A stretch of 64,000 bases of DNA from Gammaproteobacteria bacterium (lineage in GTDB: Bacteria > Pseudomonadota > Gammaproteobacteria > Burkholderiales > Gallionellaceae), in NCBI GenBank assembly GCA_018820925.1, contig JAHJNJ010000002.1, positions 1 through 64,000 on the forward strand. Direction: 5' to 3'. The notes under the pieces are model-generated. The model saw only the letters and a program-made list of their open reading frames with translations, was not told the origin of the DNA and ran no database searches. Position numbers and translations under genes: made by a program. Shown one piece after another: positions 31,508 to 38,500 of the stretch. Each line of letters starts with the position of its first letter. Positions within the stretch are counted from its first letter, which is position 1.

Positions 31508-31654
31508 AATGCGGATTTCGGAAAGCGGAGTGCGGATTTGGGGGTATGGAATGAAGCGAATGCGGAATGAATCGATTGCGGAGTGCAGATTTCGGATTAC
31601 GGAATTCGGAGTGGTGGTTTTCATTCCGCGTTCCGCAATCTGCAATCCGCAATG
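31508..31654. repeat. GCGGAAT repeat copy A (MCP-cheA gap)
   Basis: The gap is filled with units of gaatgcgga, cggattacgga and similar in one orientation, followed after gtggtggttt by ttccgc, caatctgc and aatccgcaat in the other orientation. It can fold into a long imperfect hairpin. The last unit runs into the CheA start codon (aatgg). Confidence 0.8.
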
Positions 31655-33889
31655 GATATGATCGAAGACAAGGAACTGCACGCACTGTTCAAGGCGGAAA
31701 GCGCGGAGCATCTCGCGCGCCTCGACGACGGCTTGCTGCGCCTCGAAAAAACGCCGGCCGACCCCGCGCTGCTGGAAGAAGTGTTCCGCGAATCGCACAG
31801 TCTGAAAGGTGCGGCACGCATGCTCGGGCTGGGCAAGATAGAAACCGCCGCGCACGGACTGGAAAGCATCTTCAATGCGGCGCGCAAGGGCGAGGCGCCG
31901 CTCACACCGGAGGTGATCGAGCACATGAATGCTGCGCTGATCGATCTGCGACGGCATGTGCAGGAGGCGCTTTCGAATGCGGATTTCGGAATGCCGACAG
32001 CGGAATTAGCGCCCACTCCGCAATCGGATATTCCGCAATCCGCAATCCGCACTCCGCAATCGGACATTCCGCAATCCGCATTCCCCACTCCACAATCGAC
32101 CGTGCCTTTCCGCATCGACACCGTGCGCGTGGAAACGCGCAAGCTGGACGATCTGCTGACCCAGGCGGGCGAGCTCTCGGTGATTCAGGGGCGGGCGCAA
32201 CACCGGCTGGCGCTGATGGAAGAACTTTTGGAACAATGGACGGTAGTGGAACGGGGGCGCCGCAAGCGCAGGGCAAATTCATCGGCGCGGCACGCGGAAG
32301 AACACGAGGCGCTGCTGCACTTCGGCAGCCTGCTCAAGCAGGCGCGCGATGCGCATTTTGACGATAGCGCGCGCCTGGAATCCACCGTTCACCTGCTGGA
32401 AGACCAAGTGCGCAGCATCCGCCTGCTGCCGCTCTCCACCGTATTTGCGCTGTTTCCGCGCATGGTGCGCGACTTGGCCAAAGAACAGGGCAAGGAAGCG
32501 GAACTGGTGATCGAGGGCGGTGACATCAGCGTGGACAAACGCATTCTCGAGGAAATGAAAGACCCGCTGATGCACCTGATCCGCAATGCCATCGATCACG
32601 GCATCGAAGCGCCCGCCGAGCGCGAGCAGTTGGGCAAGCCGCGCAGAGCCACGGTGCGGTTGCGTGCCACGCGCGAAAATGCCAGCGTACAACTGGCCGT
32701 GCAGGACGACGGCCGCGGGCTGGACACCGCGGTCATCCTGCAGGAAGCAAAGAAGCGCGGCCTACTCAATGCGGAGTTCGGAATGCAGAATGCGGACTCC
32801 ATTCTGCAGTCGAACACTCCGCAATCCGCACTCCGCAATCCGCAATTGGATGCGGCTCAATTGCAGCAACTGATTTTCACGCCCGGCTTTTCCACCAGCA
32901 GCTTCGTCACCGAACTCTCCGGGCGCGGTGTGGGGCTGGATGTGGTGCGCGTCAATGTCGAGCGCATGAAGGGAAGCGTGCACCTGCAATCAGTCGCCGG
33001 TCAGGGGCTGACAGTGCAACTGCGCCTGCCGCTGAGCCTCACCACTGCGCAGATCCTGCTGGCGAGCGCGGGCGGCGGACTGTACGGACTGCCGGTCGAA
33101 TTCGTCCATACCTCGCGCCGCGTGCGCGAAGAAGACATCTTCACACTCGAAGGCCATCTGGCCATCCTGCTGGACGGCCTGCCGGTGATCACTGCGCGCC
33201 TCGCCGACCTGCTGCAACTGCCGACCGGTGAACTGGTGGCGCCCGACATCCTGGCGTGCATCGTGATCCAGGTCGGCGAGGAGCGCTTGGGTTTGCTGGT
33301 GGACGAACTGCTGGCCGAGGAAGAAGTGGTGCCCAAACCGCCCGGCCCGCCATTGCGGCGCGTGCGCAACGTATCCGCGTTGGCCATGCTGGGCAGCGGC
33401 AAAATTTGCGCGGTGCTGAACCCTGCCGACCTGTTGCGCACGTGTCTAATGCGGAATTCGGAATTCGGAATGCGGAGTGCTGAATCCATTCCGCATTCCG
33501 CAATCGGCATTCCGCAATCGAATGCTCCGCATTCGATCCTGTTGGTGGAAGACTCGGCCCTGATCCGCGCCATGGAAAAACGCATTCTAGAAGACGGCGG
33601 CTACGAAGTGGTGGCGACGGTGGACGGCGTGGATGCGCTCAACGCCCTGGGCAGCCGCGCCTTCGCCGCCGTGGTGTCGGACGTCATGATGCCCAACATG
33701 GACGGCCTCACGCTCACCGCGCGCATTCGCGCCGAGCCGCGCTACAAGGAACTGCCGCTGATCCTGGTGACCAGCCTCGCCTCGGATGAAGACAAGCGGC
33801 GCGGCCTCGATGCCGGCGCCAACGCCTATATTCCCAAACCGACGTTCGACCAGCGCGTGCTGCTGGATACGTTGAAAAGGCTCATTTGA
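31652..33889 (+). CDS. cheA: CheA-type histidine kinase with C-terminal receiver, repeat-loaded
   Basis: The 745-residue protein resembles WspE: HPt domain (ESHSLKGAARM, phospho-histidine near residue 50), dimerisation region, HATPase (LIRNAIDHGIEAP about 305-317, DDGRGLD, then TPGFSTSSF and GRGVGLDVV), a CheW-like domain and a receiver (VEDSALIRAME, SDVMMPNMDG). It should phosphorylate the HD-GYP regulator, CheB and its own receiver. Three linkers are encoded by one repeat family: about 108-149 (after HPt), 373-399 (in the ATPase domain between DDGRGLD and TPGFS) and 599-628 (before the receiver). The ATG at 31652 is the last bases of repeat copy A. Confidence 0.9.
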   Translation: MDMIEDKELHALFKAESAEHLARLDDGLLRLEKTPADPALLEEVFRESHSLKGAARMLGLGKIETAAHGLESIFNAARKGEAPLTPEVIEHMNAALIDLRRHVQEALSNADFGMPTAELAPTPQSDIPQSAIRTPQSDIPQSAFPTPQSTVPFRIDTVRVETRKLDDLLTQAGELSVIQGRAQHRLALMEELLEQWTVVERGRRKRRANSSARHAEEHEALLHFGSLLKQARDAHFDDSARLESTVHLLEDQVRSIRLLPLSTVFALFPRMVRDLAKEQGKEAELVIEGGDISVDKRILEEMKDPLMHLIRNAIDHGIEAPAEREQLGKPRRATVRLRATRENASVQLAVQDDGRGLDTAVILQEAKKRGLLNAEFGMQNADSILQSNTPQSALRNPQLDAAQLQQLIFTPGFSTSSFVTELSGRGVGLDVVRVNVERMKGSVHLQSVAGQGLTVQLRLPLSLTTAQILLASAGGGLYGLPVEFVHTSRRVREEDIFTLEGHLAILLDGLPVITARLADLLQLPTGELVAPDILACIVIQVGEERLGLLVDELLAEEEVVPKPPGPPLRRVRNVSALAMLGSGKICAVLNPADLLRTCLMRNSEFGMRSAESIPHSAIGIPQSNAPHSILLVEDSALIRAMEKRILEDGGYEVVATVDGVDALNALGSRAFAAVVSDVMMPNMDGLTLTARIRAEPRYKELPLILVTSLASDEDKRRGLDAGANAYIPKPTFDQRVLLDTLKRLI
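31974..32098. repeat. GCGGAAT repeat copy B (inside cheA, after HPt)
   Basis: Left units gaatgcggatttcggaatgc pair with right units of attccgcaatccgc; the right arm has about eight ccgcaat/ccgcact units in a row. It is read in frame as an Asn/Pro/Gln/Ser-rich linker (PQSDIPQSAIRTPQ). Confidence 0.85.
32768..32847. repeat. GCGGAAT repeat copy C (inside the cheA ATPase domain)
   Basis: Left arm aatgcggagttcggaatgca, right arm actccgcaatccgcactccg; about 80 bases. It encodes NAEFGMQNADSILQ and NTPQSALRNPQ, between the conserved DDGRGLD and TPGFS motifs of the kinase core. Confidence 0.85.
33448..33535. repeat. GCGGAAT repeat copy D (inside cheA, before receiver)
   Basis: Left arm aatgcggaattcggaattcg, right arm attccgcattccgcaatcgg and more. 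It encodes the linker from the CheW-like domain to the receiver (RNSEFGMRSAESIPHSAIGI). Confidence 0.85.
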
Positions 33890-33920
33890 ATGCGGAATGC
33901 TGAATTCGGAATGCGGAATG
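33888..33920. repeat. GCGGAAT repeat copy E (left arm of the bS23 cassette)
   Basis: Units gaatgcggaatgctgaattc and ggaatgcggaatg run in one orientation only. The stop codon of cheA and the start codon of the four-helix-bundle gene both lie in or at this arm. Its inverted partner is copy F. Confidence 0.82.
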
Positions 33921-34264
33921 ATTTGAAGCAGCGGACCAAGGGTTTCGCGCTGCAAATTATTGTGTTGGTTGATAGCTTGCCGGTGGGCAGGACAGCCGAG
34001 GTAATAGGCAGGCAATTGCTCCGCTCCGGAACATCGGTGGGTGCGAATTATCGCGCGGCGTGTCGTGCAAAGTCGGCGGCGGACTTCATCGCCAAGATGG
34101 GAATCGTAGAAGAAGAGGCCGACGAATGTATCTACTGGATGGAGCTGCTGGCCGAGGCAAATATTCTGCCTTTGACCAGATTACAACCGCTCATGACGGA
34201 GGCTGATGAACTCGTAGCCATCACGGTCTCATCTATAAAAACGGCCAAGGCAAACAAGAAATGA
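33890..34264 (+). CDS. bS23/IVP-type four-helix-bundle protein
   Basis: The 124-residue protein has the features of the family found in 23S rRNA intervening sequences and, as Avd, in diversity-generating retroelements: an RTKGFALQIIVLVDSLP helix, then IGRQLLRSGTSVGANYRAA, then KMGIVEEEADECIYWMELL and a final amphipathic helix. The first residues MRNAEFG are repeat-encoded; translation may instead start at the ATG at 33911 (MRNDLKQRTKG). It overlaps CheB's start by four bases (ATGA) and follows cheA directly. No reverse transcriptase or rRNA is nearby. The family is thought to bind nucleic acid or nucleoprotein; its role in a chemosensory operon is unknown. Confidence 0.88.
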   Translation: MRNAEFGMRNDLKQRTKGFALQIIVLVDSLPVGRTAEVIGRQLLRSGTSVGANYRAACRAKSAADFIAKMGIVEEEADECIYWMELLAEANILPLTRLQPLMTEADELVAITVSSIKTAKANKK

Positions 34265-35340
34265 ACACCACCAATTCCGCACCCCGCATTCCGAATTCCG
34301 CAATCAGGGTCCTCCTCGTCGACGACTCTCCCATCGCGCTGCACATCATGCAGCGCCTGCTGTCTGCCTCACCCGGCATTCAGGTGGTGGGCACTGCCAC
34401 CAACGGCAAGGAGGCGCTCGAGTTGTTGCCCGAGTTGAATCCCGACGTGATCTGCACCGATCTGCACATGCCGGTGATGGATGGCATGGAGTTCACCCGC
34501 GCGGTGATGAACAAGTACCCGCGCCCCATCCTGGTGGTGAGCGTATCGGTGGAGCCGGACTCGTCCAATATTTTCCAGATGCTGGGGGCGGGGGCGGTGG
34601 ATGTCTACCCCAAGCCGCGCGACATTCTCGGGGCGGATCAGGACAAGCTGGCCAGGGAACTCTCCAGCAAGATTCGCATCCTCGCCGGTGTGCATGTTTT
34701 TCGCCGCACCGCAACAGCGAAAACTACTCCTCCGTCCCTGCCGCACTTAAAGCTGACACCTCACGCCAACGTGCGCATCGTGGCGATTGGAGCTTCCACT
34801 GGCGGCCCGCAGGCGCTGCGCGAAATTCTTTCCCATCTGCCGGTCGAGTTTCCCGTGCCGGTGTTGTGTGTGCAGCATATCGGCGGCGACTTTCTCACCG
34901 GACTGGTGGCCTGGCTGGCCGAAGCCTGCCCGCTGCCGGTGCGCAAAGCCGTGCAGGGCGAGCAGCCGCGAGCCGGGATGGTCTATTTCGCGCCCGAGGA
35001 CACCCATCTGGAACTTGACGGCAGCGGACGTTTTTCGCTCACGCAGGCTCCGCCCTGCGACGGCCACCGGCCCTCGGCAACCGTCACCCTGCGCGCTGCG
35101 GCGCGCCGCTACGGTGCCGGTACGGTGGGCGTGCTGCTCACCGGCATGGGCCGCGACGGTGCCGAAGGCATGGCGGAAATTGCCGCCGCCGGCGGCGTCA
35201 CCATCGCCCAGGATGAAGCCAGCAGCGTGGTTTACGGCATGCCCAAAGCGGCAGTGGAACTGGGTGCCGCGCTGCATGTGCTTCCCATTGAACAGATTGC
35301 GCCGGCGCTGGTGGCGTTGGCGAAGGGGAATGTTGAATGA
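34261..35340 (+). CDS. cheB: CheB methylesterase with receiver domain
   Basis: The 359-residue protein has a receiver domain (VLLVDDSPIALHIM, TDLHMPVMDG with the phospho-aspartate, VYPKPRD) and a methylesterase domain with the catalytic triad in GASTGGPQALRE (serine), CVQHIGGDF (histidine) and LLTGMGRDGAEGM (aspartate). It removes methyl groups from the MCP and may deamidate glutamines. Residues 1-15 (NTTNSAPRIPNSAI) are encoded by a repeat arm, so the native start may have been replaced when the cassette inserted. Confidence 0.93.
   Translation: MNTTNSAPRIPNSAIRVLLVDDSPIALHIMQRLLSASPGIQVVGTATNGKEALELLPELNPDVICTDLHMPVMDGMEFTRAVMNKYPRPILVVSVSVEPDSSNIFQMLGAGAVDVYPKPRDILGADQDKLARELSSKIRILAGVHVFRRTATAKTTPPSLPHLKLTPHANVRIVAIGASTGGPQALREILSHLPVEFPVPVLCVQHIGGDFLTGLVAWLAEACPLPVRKAVQGEQPRAGMVYFAPEDTHLELDGSGRFSLTQAPPCDGHRPSATVTLRAAARRYGAGTVGVLLTGMGRDGAEGMAEIAAAGGVTIAQDEASSVVYGMPKAAVELGAALHVLPIEQIAPALVALAKGNVE
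34271..34306. repeat. GCGGAAT repeat copy F (right arm of the bS23 cassette, start of cheB)
   Basis: Units ccaattccgcaccccgcatt and ccgaattccgcaatc are the inverted counterpart of copy E. Together E and F form terminal inverted repeats around the four-helix-bundle gene. Confidence 0.82.
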
Positions 35341-35361
35341 ACACCCGAATGTTCATTAGGC

Positions 35362-35473
35362 CGTCATACCGGCGCTGGCCGGTATCCAGATTGGTAGGGT
35401 GGGCACGTTTTTGGTGCCCACGCGGTGATGGGAAGGTGTTTCCGCGTGGGCACCAAAAACGTGCCCACCCTAC
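35362..35473. repeat. Two palindromic repeats between cheB and the hybrid kinase
   Basis: A gtcataccggcgctggccgg plus tatccag palindrome (35362-35389, same type as 42806-42832) is followed by a complete tagggtgggcacg-type REP pair (35394-35473, same family as 9632-9715). Confidence 0.85.
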
Positions 35474-35476
35474 GAG

Positions 35477-35572
35477 ACTGCGGAATGAATGGAGTGCTGC
35501 ATGAAGAATGAAAACAAATCGAAAGCGGAATCCGGACTTGGGACTGCGGACTCCATTCTGCAATCCGAAATC
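35477..35572. repeat. GCGGAAT repeat copy G (start of the hybrid kinase gene)
   Basis: Units agactgcggaatg, aagcggaatccgg, gactgcggactcc and the inverted attctgcaatccgaaat run through the ribosome binding site and the first 24 codons of the next gene. Confidence 0.8.
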
Positions 35573-38500
35573 CTCATCGTAGAAGACAGCCCCGTCGAGG
35601 CGGAAATGCTGCGCCGCACGCTTGTCAAGGCTGGCTACGCGGTGAACGTGGCGCACAACGGCGAGGAAGGCCTGCAGGCAGCGCACAAGCAGCGGCCCGC
35701 GCTGGTGTTGAGCGACATCAACATGCCGGTGATGAACGGCTTTGAGTTGTGCCGCGCGATCAAGTACGACGATGACCTGTGGAATGTTCCGCTGATGCTG
35801 CTCACGGTACTGTCGGAGCCGAAAGACATCATCGAAGCGATCAATTGCGGTGCCGATGCTTACGTCGTCAAGCCTTTCGGCGAGGCCAACCTGCTGGGCC
35901 GCGTCCGTTCCCTGCTGGATGCCCCGCTCAAGAGAAAAAGGGCGGATGAGCGGCGCGAGGAAGTGGTGGGCTACGGCGGCCAGCGCTTCTCCATCTCCGG
36001 CGGCGGCCAGCAGATACTCAACCTGCTGCTCTCCGTATACGAGAACACGCTCAACCAGAATCGGGAATTGGAGAATACCCAGACCGAGCTAAATCTGCTC
36101 AACGAGAACCTGGACCGGGAAGTGCATGAGCGCACTGCGGCGGTTCGCGCGAGCGAGGAACGCTACAAACGCATCACCGAGGGGCTCACGGATTATCTGT
36201 ACACGGTGCGCGTCGAGAACGGCCGTGCGGTGGAAACCAGGCAGAGCCCGGCCAGCATGATCGTGACAGGATACACGCCGGAAGAATTTGCCGCCGATCC
36301 CTATCTATGGATCCGCATGGTCGTGCCGGAGGACCGCGAACTGGTCAACGAGCATGTGCGGCAAATCCTGGCGGGGAAGGACAGCTTGCCCATCGAGCAC
36401 CGCATCATCCGCAAGGACGGCAAGATGCGCTGGATAAGCGATACGCCCGTCCTGAGCAAGGATGCCGCCGGGAAGCTGCTGTCCTACGACGGCCTGATCA
36501 AGGACATCACCGAGCGCAAGGTTGCCGAGGAGCAAATCCACAAGCTCTCGCTGGCCGTCGAGCAGAGCATGGACAGCGTTGTCATTACCGATCTGGATGC
36601 CAAAATCGAGTACGTGAACGAAGCCTTTGTCCGGGTCACCGGCTACAGCCGCGAGGAAGTCATCGGCCAGAACCCGCGCATCCTGCAATCCGCCAGGACA
36701 CCGCGCGCAACCTACGACGCCCTGTGGGACGCTTTGCACCACGACCGGACCTGGAAGGGCGAGTTCATCAACCGGCGCAAGGACGGCAGCGAATACGCCG
36801 AATTCGCCACCATCACGCCCATTCATCAAGCCGACAGACGCGTCAGTCACTACGTGGCGGTGAAGGAGGATATCACCGAGAAAAAACGCCTGGGCAAGGA
36901 ACTGGATCAGCACCGCCATCATCTGGAGGAACTGGTCGAGACCCGCACCCACGAGTTGAACGAGGCCAAGGCCGCGGCCGAGGCGGCGAACGCGGCCAAG
37001 AGCGCCTTCGTCGCCAACATGAGTCACGAAATACGCACGCCGCTGAATGCCATCGTCGGGCTCACGCACCTGTTGCGGCGCGACAATCCCGATCCGGCGC
37101 AGAAGGAGAAGCTGGACAAGATCGTCGAGGCTTCCCGGCACCTGCTCTCGGTCATCAGCGACATTCTCGACTTTTCCAAGATCGAGGCGGGCAAGCTGAA
37201 TCTGAGTGTCGCCGACTTTTCCTTCGCGCGCATGCTGGACAATGTCGTCTCCATGATCGGTTCCAGGGTGCGCGAAAAGAATCTGGAACTCGTCGTGGAA
37301 CGCGACGCTGTGCCGCCGGTCTTGGTGGGCGATTCCACCCGGCTGGCGCAAGCCCTGCTCAACTATCTTTCCAACGCCGTCAAATTCACCGAGCGCGGCA
37401 CGATCGGCATCCGCATTTCCAAATCGGAGGAAACGCCAACCGACCTCATGGTTCGCTTCGAAGTGACGGACACCGGCATCGGTATCCCGCCCGAGAAAAT
37501 ATCGCATTTGTTCGCCGCCTTCGAGCAGGTCGATGCCAGCATCTCGCGCCGTTATGGCGGCACTGGCCTGGGGCTCGCCATCACCCGGCAACTGGCGCAC
37601 CTCATGGGCGGCGAGGCCGGCGCGCAGAGCGTACCCGGCCAAGGCAGTACATTCTGGTTTACCGCGCGTCTGCGCAGGAGCGATCTCGGCGTGGACGAGT
37701 TGCCCGACGCCCCCGCGCGCGGCAAGTTGGGCCTGCAAACCATGCCGGTCGGCACCCGCATCCTGCTGGCCGAAGACAACAAGATCAACCAGGAAGTCGC
37801 GGTAGAACTCCTGAGCGAAGTCGGCTTGAAGGTGGAGGTCGCCAACGACGGCTTTGAGGCATTGGAGATGGCGCGCAAAGGCGGTTACGACCTGATCCTG
37901 ATGGACATGCAGATGCCGGGCATGGACGGCCTCGAGGCGACCCGTGCCATCCGCGACCTGCCCGGTTGCGCGATGCTGCCCATCCTGGCGATGACCGCCA
38001 ACGCCTTCGACGAAGATCGCGAGCGCTGCAAGGCCGCAGGCATGAACGACTTCATCACCAAACCGGTCGATCCCGAGCAGCTTTTCGGCACGTTGTTGCG
38101 CTGGTTGTCTCCCGCCGCGATGGTTGTACCCGCCGCTCCTGCCGCCACCGGGACGCCGCCCGCCGAACTCACAGACATCCCCGGACTGGATATCCGGCAG
38201 GGACTCAAGGTACTGAACGGCCACCTCGCCATCTACCTGCGTTTGCTGCGCCAATTTGAGGTTGATCATGGCGACGACATGATCCGGCTGCGCAAGCACA
38301 TGTCTGCGGGAGAGCGCGACAAGGCCAGATTGCTGGCCCATACGCTGAAAGGCAGTTCGGCCAATCTGGGGGCGACCGGCGTGCAGGGGCTGGCCGCCAA
38401 ACTGGAAGAGGCGATCAAGGATGGTCGCGATGCGGTGACAATCGGACGGCTGGCGAACACGCTCGAAATCGGCTTGCAGGAACTGGTTGCGGGAATACGC

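Follow-up and report, generated by a model that had tools for sequence, protein, structure and literature searches.

Small dispersed hairpins, together with a gene-bearing copy that is flanked by the same repeats, make up the REPIN / RAYT systems of bacteria. The intervening sequences (IVSs) of 23S rRNA are another kind of hairpin element, and for one of them the accessible text of PMC4990558 describes tandem heptameric repeats, variable between strains, in front of the open reading frame (ORF) of its S23 protein, and excision by RNase III. According to the accessible text of PMC4692102, heptameric repeats in general are over-represented in bacteria; part of them are inverted, and related species differ in them at the same gene pairs. 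The S23 family (PF05635) is described as Avd-like and as associated with immune loci in the accessible part of PMC10053308. The locus considered here has features in common with several of these systems. It lies in the 64-kb window (by which we mean the whole stretch of 64,000 nucleotides that was analysed, from a bacterium of the Gallionellaceae), where an operon consisting of an MCP gene, cheA, cheB and a hybrid kinase gene (assigned by Pfam) contains clusters of a degenerate GADTNNN unit, or heptad, in inverted arrangement at 31508-35574, and also a gene for an S23 protein. We consider it probable that this cluster goes back to an IVS-type element, that is, a heptad-armed hairpin holding an S23/PF05635 gene, together with gene-less derivatives.

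Heptad blocks and the S23 gene in the chemotaxis operon

Of the heptad blocks, here lettered A to G, E and F are the two arms of one structure. They are 91% complementary over 22 nucleotides (nt), lie 367 nt apart and pair with each other in the predicted RNA fold (z-score -2.3; 2 of 100 shuffles as good). The gene between them fits tightly between cheA and cheB, with TGAATG at its start and an ATGA overlap at its end, and its protein matches both PF05635 (57.9 bits, cut-off 33.8) and TIGR02436 (86.5 bits, cut-off 24). AlphaFold predicts a confident four-helix bundle (pLDDT 93) in which residues 1-9, encoded by the left arm, are disordered (pLDDT <50). The best Foldseek match in PDB is 2rld (E 5e-6), followed by 2gsc (E 3e-3), both of which are S23 proteins and are also returned by a sequence search of PDB; Avd, the accessory protein of diversity-generating retroelements (DGRs), is a weaker match by E-value (4dwl, TM 0.72, E 0.08), and a DGR ribonucleoprotein, 8ube, is matched with TM 0.70. 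The ratio of nonsynonymous to synonymous substitution (dN/dS) in the S23 gene is 0.10, 0.12 and 0.18 among the window and the related loci L194 and L195, and 0.05 and 0.23 in the pairs L203/L206 and L207/L213 elsewhere, the value for the window versus L199 not being finite. Because these ratios are low, the protein appears, as far as sequence comparison can tell, to be kept by purifying selection.

A Pfam scan of five genes of the locus assigned the gene between the arms to PF05635 only, with no transposase domain, and found no reverse transcriptase among the five, nothing wider having been searched; a PADLOC search at E 0.001 matched neither of the two proteins queried. Dispersed small hairpins and a gene-bearing copy between such repeats are shared with REPIN / RAYT, but here the gene encodes a four-helix bundle without a transposase domain and the repeat sequence varies between genomes; the gene between the arms is not a RAYT, the rest of the genome not having been searched for one. 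With DGRs the element has in common the similar fold of Avd, but not, among the genes scanned, the reverse transcriptase.

The unit of the blocks is a tandem, degenerate seven-base sequence of the TGCGGAAT type arranged as inverted arms. A preliminary description of the window had reported seven blocks of shared units and none elsewhere in it. The seven blocks are present at about the positions it gave, and all 25 matches to the three-unit pattern GADT...GADT...GADT in the window fall at 31574-35572, as compared with a mean of 0.2 and a maximum of 2 in 50 dinucleotide shuffles. Over the entire genome, G000 (3,442,231 bases, 52 contigs, 1.72% estimated contamination), every one of the 22 sequences within one mismatch of CGGADTNCGGADTNCGGADT is inside the locus, the reversed-pattern control giving 1, and when two mismatches are allowed 7 of 16 lie outside it, as single matches. 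Among 398 genomes sampled from the phylum, a stricter three-unit pattern was found only in the window's own, and a related three-unit pattern was found in 7 of 120 nearer relatives. Strict local confinement is however special to G000, because units occur genome-wide in the genomes of 20 relatives, with 11 to 1,981 four-unit matches each and more than in the reversed-pattern control in 19 of the 20 (the exception being G509, with 18 versus 133). The features of the locus, all on the plus strand, are as follows.

31508..31652, +: block A, gene-less heptad hairpin in the spacer from the MCP stop (31503) to the cheA ATG (31652); folding z-score -3.6
31652..33889, +: cheA, with Hpt, HATPase, CheW and receiver domains; host of blocks B to D
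31974..32098, +: block B, gene-less heptad hairpin, in frame, in the CheA linker after the Hpt domain; z-score -7.1
32768..32850, +: block C, gene-less heptad hairpin, in frame, in place of an 11-residue loop of the CheA ATPase domain; z-score -4.3
33448..33535, +: block D, gene-less heptad hairpin, in frame, in the CheA linker between the CheW-like and receiver domains; z-score -6.4
33887..33920, +: block E, left arm of the gene-carrying element, beginning at the cheA stop TGA
33890..34264, +: four-helix-bundle (S23 / 23S rRNA intervening-sequence protein) gene, 124 amino acids, between arms E and F
34261..35340, +: cheB, whose ATG overlaps the stop of the four-helix-bundle gene
34271..34307, +: block F, right arm of the gene-carrying element, encoding part of the CheB N-terminus
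35477..35574, +: block G, weak heptad hairpin where the hybrid kinase gene starts; z-score -1.9; a similar stretch is kept in the related locus L323

It had also been proposed that most blocks fold into hairpins and that five of them lie in coding sequence. Hairpin formation was borne out by RNA folding prediction for blocks A to D, each of which folds better than 200 of 200 shuffles; the hairpin of block G is weak, because 9 of 200 shuffles fold equally well, and E and F together form one hairpin, of which each is an arm. As for coding placement, B, C and D do lie in frame within cheA, and the account of the others needs correction, in that E, F and G encode the first residues of the S23 protein, CheB and the hybrid kinase, respectively, and A is spacer.

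The order cheA - S23 gene - cheB with heptad arms is also found in L194, L195, L199 and L270, which come from other assemblies, and the flanks of the blocks are continuous with sequence of the same genus. Both observations speak against an artefact of assembly or binning that has brought foreign or misassembled repeats into a draft genome, and in spite of the number of contigs and the estimated contamination we find such an artefact hardly credible. Between relatives the blocks differ in presence and in length. Block A takes the place of the relatives' short spacer and is absent from L323, L324 and L194. The length of block B differs in L194, L195 and L199, with other sequence at the site in L323 and L324, and heptad-type residues at the position of block D are present in L194, L195 and L327 and in neither L323 nor L324. 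L323, from a genome of the same genus (G426), is 90-97% identical to the window at the DNA level over the cheA segments tested, lacks blocks A, C and D as well as the E-gene-F element, and keeps the G-like stretch. At the site of block C, 8 of 10 aligned CheA sequences, L323 included, have a loop of constant length without heptads, and a hairpin is present only in the window and in L195, where its content differs. The DNA of L323 on the two sides of this site is 93.7% and 97.2% identical to the window. Since L323 keeps a loop of the common length there, block C most likely arrived in the window lineage after the split from L323, replacing about 33 nt.

The preliminary description had considered two explanations for the cluster. 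In one of these the blocks form a linker system that tunes CheA signalling through the number of units, and it is true that B, C and D are in CheA linkers or loops, keep the frame and vary in length between relatives. Blocks A, E, F and G, however, are in spacers or gene starts, block C is missing from most of the aligned CheA sequences, and the same arrangement occurs at the purine synthesis junction guaB|guaA, at a ruvC-like gene, at DISARM, CRISPR and other operons and in 23S rRNA (see below). Chemotaxis is therefore one target among many, and a tuning function seems to us very improbable. The other explanation, local spread with linkers as safe sites, fits well with the genome-wide unit search and with the loop at block C, but it overlooked both the S23 gene and the existence of the same architecture, in other seven-base vocabularies, in many bacterial groups.

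Repeats of other kinds were noticed in the same operon of relatives. In L323 and L324 a different hairpin repeat, of the CCCTCCCC / GGGGAGGG type, is found where the window has heptads; in L323 it occupies linker B and encodes PSPLQGEG-like residues, and in L324 it is in the cheA|cheB spacer. In L325 a DUF559 gene (133 bits; L325:1955-2641) lies between the MCP gene and cheA and is preceded by four direct ~69-nt CCCTCCCC repeats within 23-nt perfect inverted arms. These repeats and the DUF559 gene are possibly a second pair of repeat plus orphan gene in the same spacers.

Inverted seven-base arms at other PF05635 genes

Among the systems closest to the window element is the 23S rRNA IVS, and in G219 a PF05635 gene inside 23S rRNA was found to have heptad arms (left units such as GGAATCA, GAGTTCA and GGAATTA; lag-7 identity 0.62). 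A second copy in G219, with arms of the GTGAGGA type, is outside rRNA and before a gene which we take from its translation to be ruvC-like, and a third copy has no clear arms. The window element shares with the IVS the S23/PF05635 protein, the location of the ORF in the loop of an inverted-repeat stem, a patchy occurrence and the heptameric repeats beside the ORF (seen here in G219 and described in the accessible text of PMC4990558). It differs in being placed between cheA and cheB and not in a 23S rRNA gene, and in being accompanied in its operon by gene-less hairpins, some of them within coding sequence; the seven-base vocabulary of elements in protein operons, moreover, varies from locus to locus. 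No rRNA was found in any of 11 Pseudomonadota loci checked.

Homologues of the window protein are present in 26 plasmid records, and in the seven of these that were inspected there are seven-base repeats beside the gene, inverted across it in 6 of the 7; in the remaining locus, L190, they are chiefly direct and the inverted pair is weak. The gene stands alone among unrelated neighbours in these plasmid loci, with the exception of L187 and L188, which share a DUF1156/Swt1 pair. PF05635-type genes with seven-base repeats are also found inside defence operons, namely DUF1156/Swt1, DISARM drmD/PglX and csx2/cas1 (L187, L188, L189 and L193).

A larger set was obtained from a collection of 84,980 genomes by a profile scan for which the plasmid homologues were aligned, and consists of the best 80 of at least 584 relatives, named as Proteobacteria, Chloroflexi, Verrucomicrobia, Planctomycetes, Acidobacteria, cyanobacteria, Bacteroidetes and others. 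In the query used for ranking the first residues are heptad-encoded, which may favour loci of similar vocabulary. In the 250 base pairs (bp) to the left of the gene there are 158 heptad matches on the plus strand versus 5 on the minus strand, and in the 250 bp to the right 163 on the minus strand versus 28 on the plus strand, all other 250-bp bins having at most 20 per bin and strand. Both arms in the plus-left/minus-right orientation were found in 51 of the 80 loci, and the reverse orientation in 1.

Complementarity between the arms leads to the same picture in sets chosen in different ways. A score of at least 18 is reached by 59 of 74 loci of the best-80 set (six were dropped for short flanks), by 20 of the 26 highest-scoring Pseudomonadota PF05635 loci, by 19 of 25 loci from 20 further genomes and by 12 of 17 same-genus loci; in windows 900 bp farther out the corresponding numbers are 0 of 68, 0 of 26, 0 of 25 and 0 of 17, and even a score of 15 is reached there by only 1, 2, 3 and 0. 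Full flanks were available for 26 of 30 and 25 of 30 loci in the second and third sets and for 17 of 19 same-genus loci. The Pfam-based sets are free of the query bias; they include related loci (for example L052 and L053), and L346, L347 and L348 repeat loci of the 80. The period is evident from the identity within arms at lag 7, which is 0.72, 0.71 and 0.55 in three sets; for lags 7 and 14 together it ranges from 0.54 to 0.72, and at other lags it is at most 0.38. Because loci share vocabularies, mispaired flanks (99% point 29, exceeded by 12 of 77 real pairs) were dropped as the main control in favour of windows farther out in the same loci. A test of whether the arms are in register gave a mean of 25.1 for real arms versus 20.2 with shuffled unit order, and 20 of 60 loci were matched by at most 10 of 200 shuffles, a test which is biased in that the arms had been chosen as best local alignments.

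The neighbouring genes are mostly co-oriented with the PF05635 gene (57:7 upstream, 58:4 downstream, both sides in 46 of 56). Among pairs of loci with 70-80% protein identity, 39 of 49 have no homologous neighbour on either side, as against 1 of 8 pairs above 80%; for 8 of the 80 loci one flank is missed at a contig end, and such a flank was scored as not homologous. In the window's genus there are 23 PF05635 genes, distributed over 15 of 34 genomes. Near-identical copies within one genome were considered as candidates for transposition and were rejected, being in each case a duplicated rRNA operon, a longer duplicated segment or a direct tandem repeat. The tandem, in L363 (G510:C203:1-3000), consists of two PF05635 gene copies with CTTCCAG-type repeats, at a period of 525 and 99.5% identical over 576 bp; this repetition of gene plus arm, on a short contig, may be real or may be an assembly effect at the contig end.

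Vocabulary turnover and possible polymerase slippage

G000 has a second PF05635 gene exactly between the guaB stop and the guaA start (IMP dehydrogenase and GMP synthase by Pfam). Among 34 same-genus genomes the insert is present in G000 and G412, and in G426 the flanks enclose a diverged copy of the gene; 30 genomes have both flanks matched separately and no PF05635 gene there, and in G414 only one flank was found. Of the 20 junctions that were read, 11 have a clear heptad hairpin (a score of at least 17 with best lag 7, which is our own cut, made with no random control), 5 a degenerate one (scores 9-14) and 4 none (G404, G403, G413 and G398). The units are of the TTAGTCG, TAGCTGG, GGATTTA, GGATACA or GAAGGGG type, and 3 of the hairpins contain the gene. 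The TTAGTCG hairpin is found at seven more places of G000; where its sites were compared, one is a GGATTGA hairpin in G421, another has the same vocabulary in G426, and a third has no heptad hairpin in G364 and G424.

When the guaBA insert of G000 was used as query, 13-14 matches per genome were obtained in G000, G412 and G426 only, and 1-3 in each of the other 31. Since the query carries one vocabulary, this indicates that the vocabulary is shared and establishes no rule about the gene. Arrays of the GGAT type occur in 26 of the 34 genomes and are commoner where the gene's own arms are of this type (18-93 versus 0-33, p = 0.004), a comparison made post hoc, with arms typed by eye, in 13 of the 15 gene-bearing genomes (G398 and G402 were left out). 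A de novo scan of 340-360 kb stretches found 1 heptad hairpin in G364, 4 in G000 and 2 in G424, which are too few to compare.

Two further observations on heptad hairpins may be recorded here. In L404 (G000:C33:61400-62300) the loop of a TTAGTCG heptad hairpin holds another, nested hairpin repeat (GTAGGATGGGTGGAGCG...), and the IMG/VR contigs L074, L080, L098 and L108 each have one or more gene-less heptad hairpins.

It could be argued that no element is involved, and that heptameric simple repeats arise by polymerase slippage and template switching at operon-spacer hairpins and are kept for mRNA stability or separation, the S23 gene being a separate hitch-hiker that lands or survives in such spacers. 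The heptameric simple sequence repeats exemplified by Xanthomonas GGGAATC and Nostoc GGGGATT are, like the blocks, made of degenerate tandem seven-base units, intergenic, sometimes inverted and different between species at the same gene pair, and their reported over-representation counts in favour of slippage; the accessible text of PMC4692102, from which this is taken, does not tie them to an S23 gene or a hairpin element. The occupation of the same junctions in the genus by hairpins of unrelated vocabulary also agrees with slippage. On the other hand, slippage leaves unexplained the presence of arms at PF05635 genes in every set tested and at none of the positions 900 bp out, and that of the same arms on a 23S rRNA IVS, nor does it account for the association of GGAT-armed genes with more GGAT arrays. 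On balance we regard this explanation as rather unlikely.

Several results weigh against an IVS-type element. The strongest of them, as far as a role of the gene is concerned, is that among the 34 same-genus genomes gene-free ones have as many GGAT-type arrays as gene-bearing ones (median 5 without and 6 with the gene, p = 0.25), a finding that also favours slippage, and that arrays far outnumber genes, since only 1 to 11 PF05635 matches were found in each of the 20 relatives' genomes with their 11 to 1,981 arrays. A strict match of vocabulary between a gene's arms and the dispersed hairpins is contradicted by G426, whose gene has arms of the TAGCTGG and GAGTGCT types and whose dispersed hairpins are partly of the TTAGTCG type. 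In viral contigs, 124 of 152 heptad arrays are without an inverted partner and 28 have one, a preponderance of direct arrays which again favours slippage, and a single tblastn query found a convincing match to the window protein in 0 of the 120 heptad-array loci listed (best match 29%, E 0.12), although distant PF05635 proteins could escape such a query. Because viral contigs carry arrays with no convincing S23 match, heptad arrays alone are not diagnostic of the element. Among the PF05635 loci themselves, 6 of the 80 have no heptad match at all and 15 of 74 score below 18 for complementarity, and among the 69 control pairs of windows taken 1.5 kb away, 3 score at least 18 (L261 with 53 and with heptads, L259 with 20, L267 with 19). 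No clean transposition within one genome was seen among the near-identical copies checked, and block C replaced about 33 nt of its target with no visible target duplication; the latter, together with the differences in arm sequence between loci, also bears on any comparison with miniature inverted-repeat transposable elements. Finally, no copying enzyme has been identified, no search having been aimed at one.

A possible mode of copying

Taken together we still favour an IVS-type element as the source of the cluster, and it is possible to outline how it may act. In this reading the full copy is E, the gene and F between cheA and cheB, and A, B, C, D and G are hairpins without a gene, written in the same vocabulary, which took the place of spacers and domain linkers in the operon. 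Movement or copying may take place at the RNA level, given that insertion is mostly in the sense orientation, that the element has no transposase and that RNase III processing is reported for rRNA IVSs. From its Avd-like fold and the precedent of the IVS, the S23 protein could bind the heptad hairpin and aid its copying, and the gene-less hairpins might then be non-autonomous products. In coding sequence, the survivors would be only those hairpins that are free of stops, keep the frame and lie in loops.

The recurrence of hairpin and gene across bacterial groups points to a widespread, little-noticed kind of mobile DNA. We would go further only tentatively, to a proposal that we rate at somewhat less than an even chance: that mobile RNA-type elements of a class not described before exist across bacterial groups, with hairpins whose arms are written in a local or genome-specific seven-base vocabulary and which are copied into spacers of operons and loops of proteins with the help of the Avd-like S23 protein encoded by the full-length copies. 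Resident hairpins would be overwritten by whichever vocabulary is then active, so that site and structure persist while the sequence turns over, the 23S rRNA IVS would be the best-known special case, and the link between PF05635 and defence would in part reflect insertion into defence operons. The association of PF05635 with immune loci noted in the accessible part of PMC10053308 is open to this alternative reading. Heptameric repeats and rRNA IVSs are both known already, and what appears to be new is to join them into an element class outside rRNA; in the open-access literature, as represented by titles and the beginnings of abstracts and with subscription papers and preprints outside its scope, we recognised no description of heptad-armed S23 elements outside rRNA. 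Such a class would bring together 23S rRNA IVSs, the over-representation of heptameric repeats and the orphan genes annotated as four helix bundle protein, which in the accessible texts have been treated separately. If it is real, the rRNA IVS becomes one case of an element that is also present in protein operons; it would then be possible to test what S23 proteins do, and there would be an explanation for one source of new protein linkers.

Other repeat families are also present in the window operon. The spacer between cheB and the hybrid kinase gene (35354-35480) contains a CCGTCATACCGGCGCTGGCCGGTATCCAG stretch, which we presume to be REP-like, followed by a 39-nt, 92% inverted repeat (GGGTGGGCACG...).

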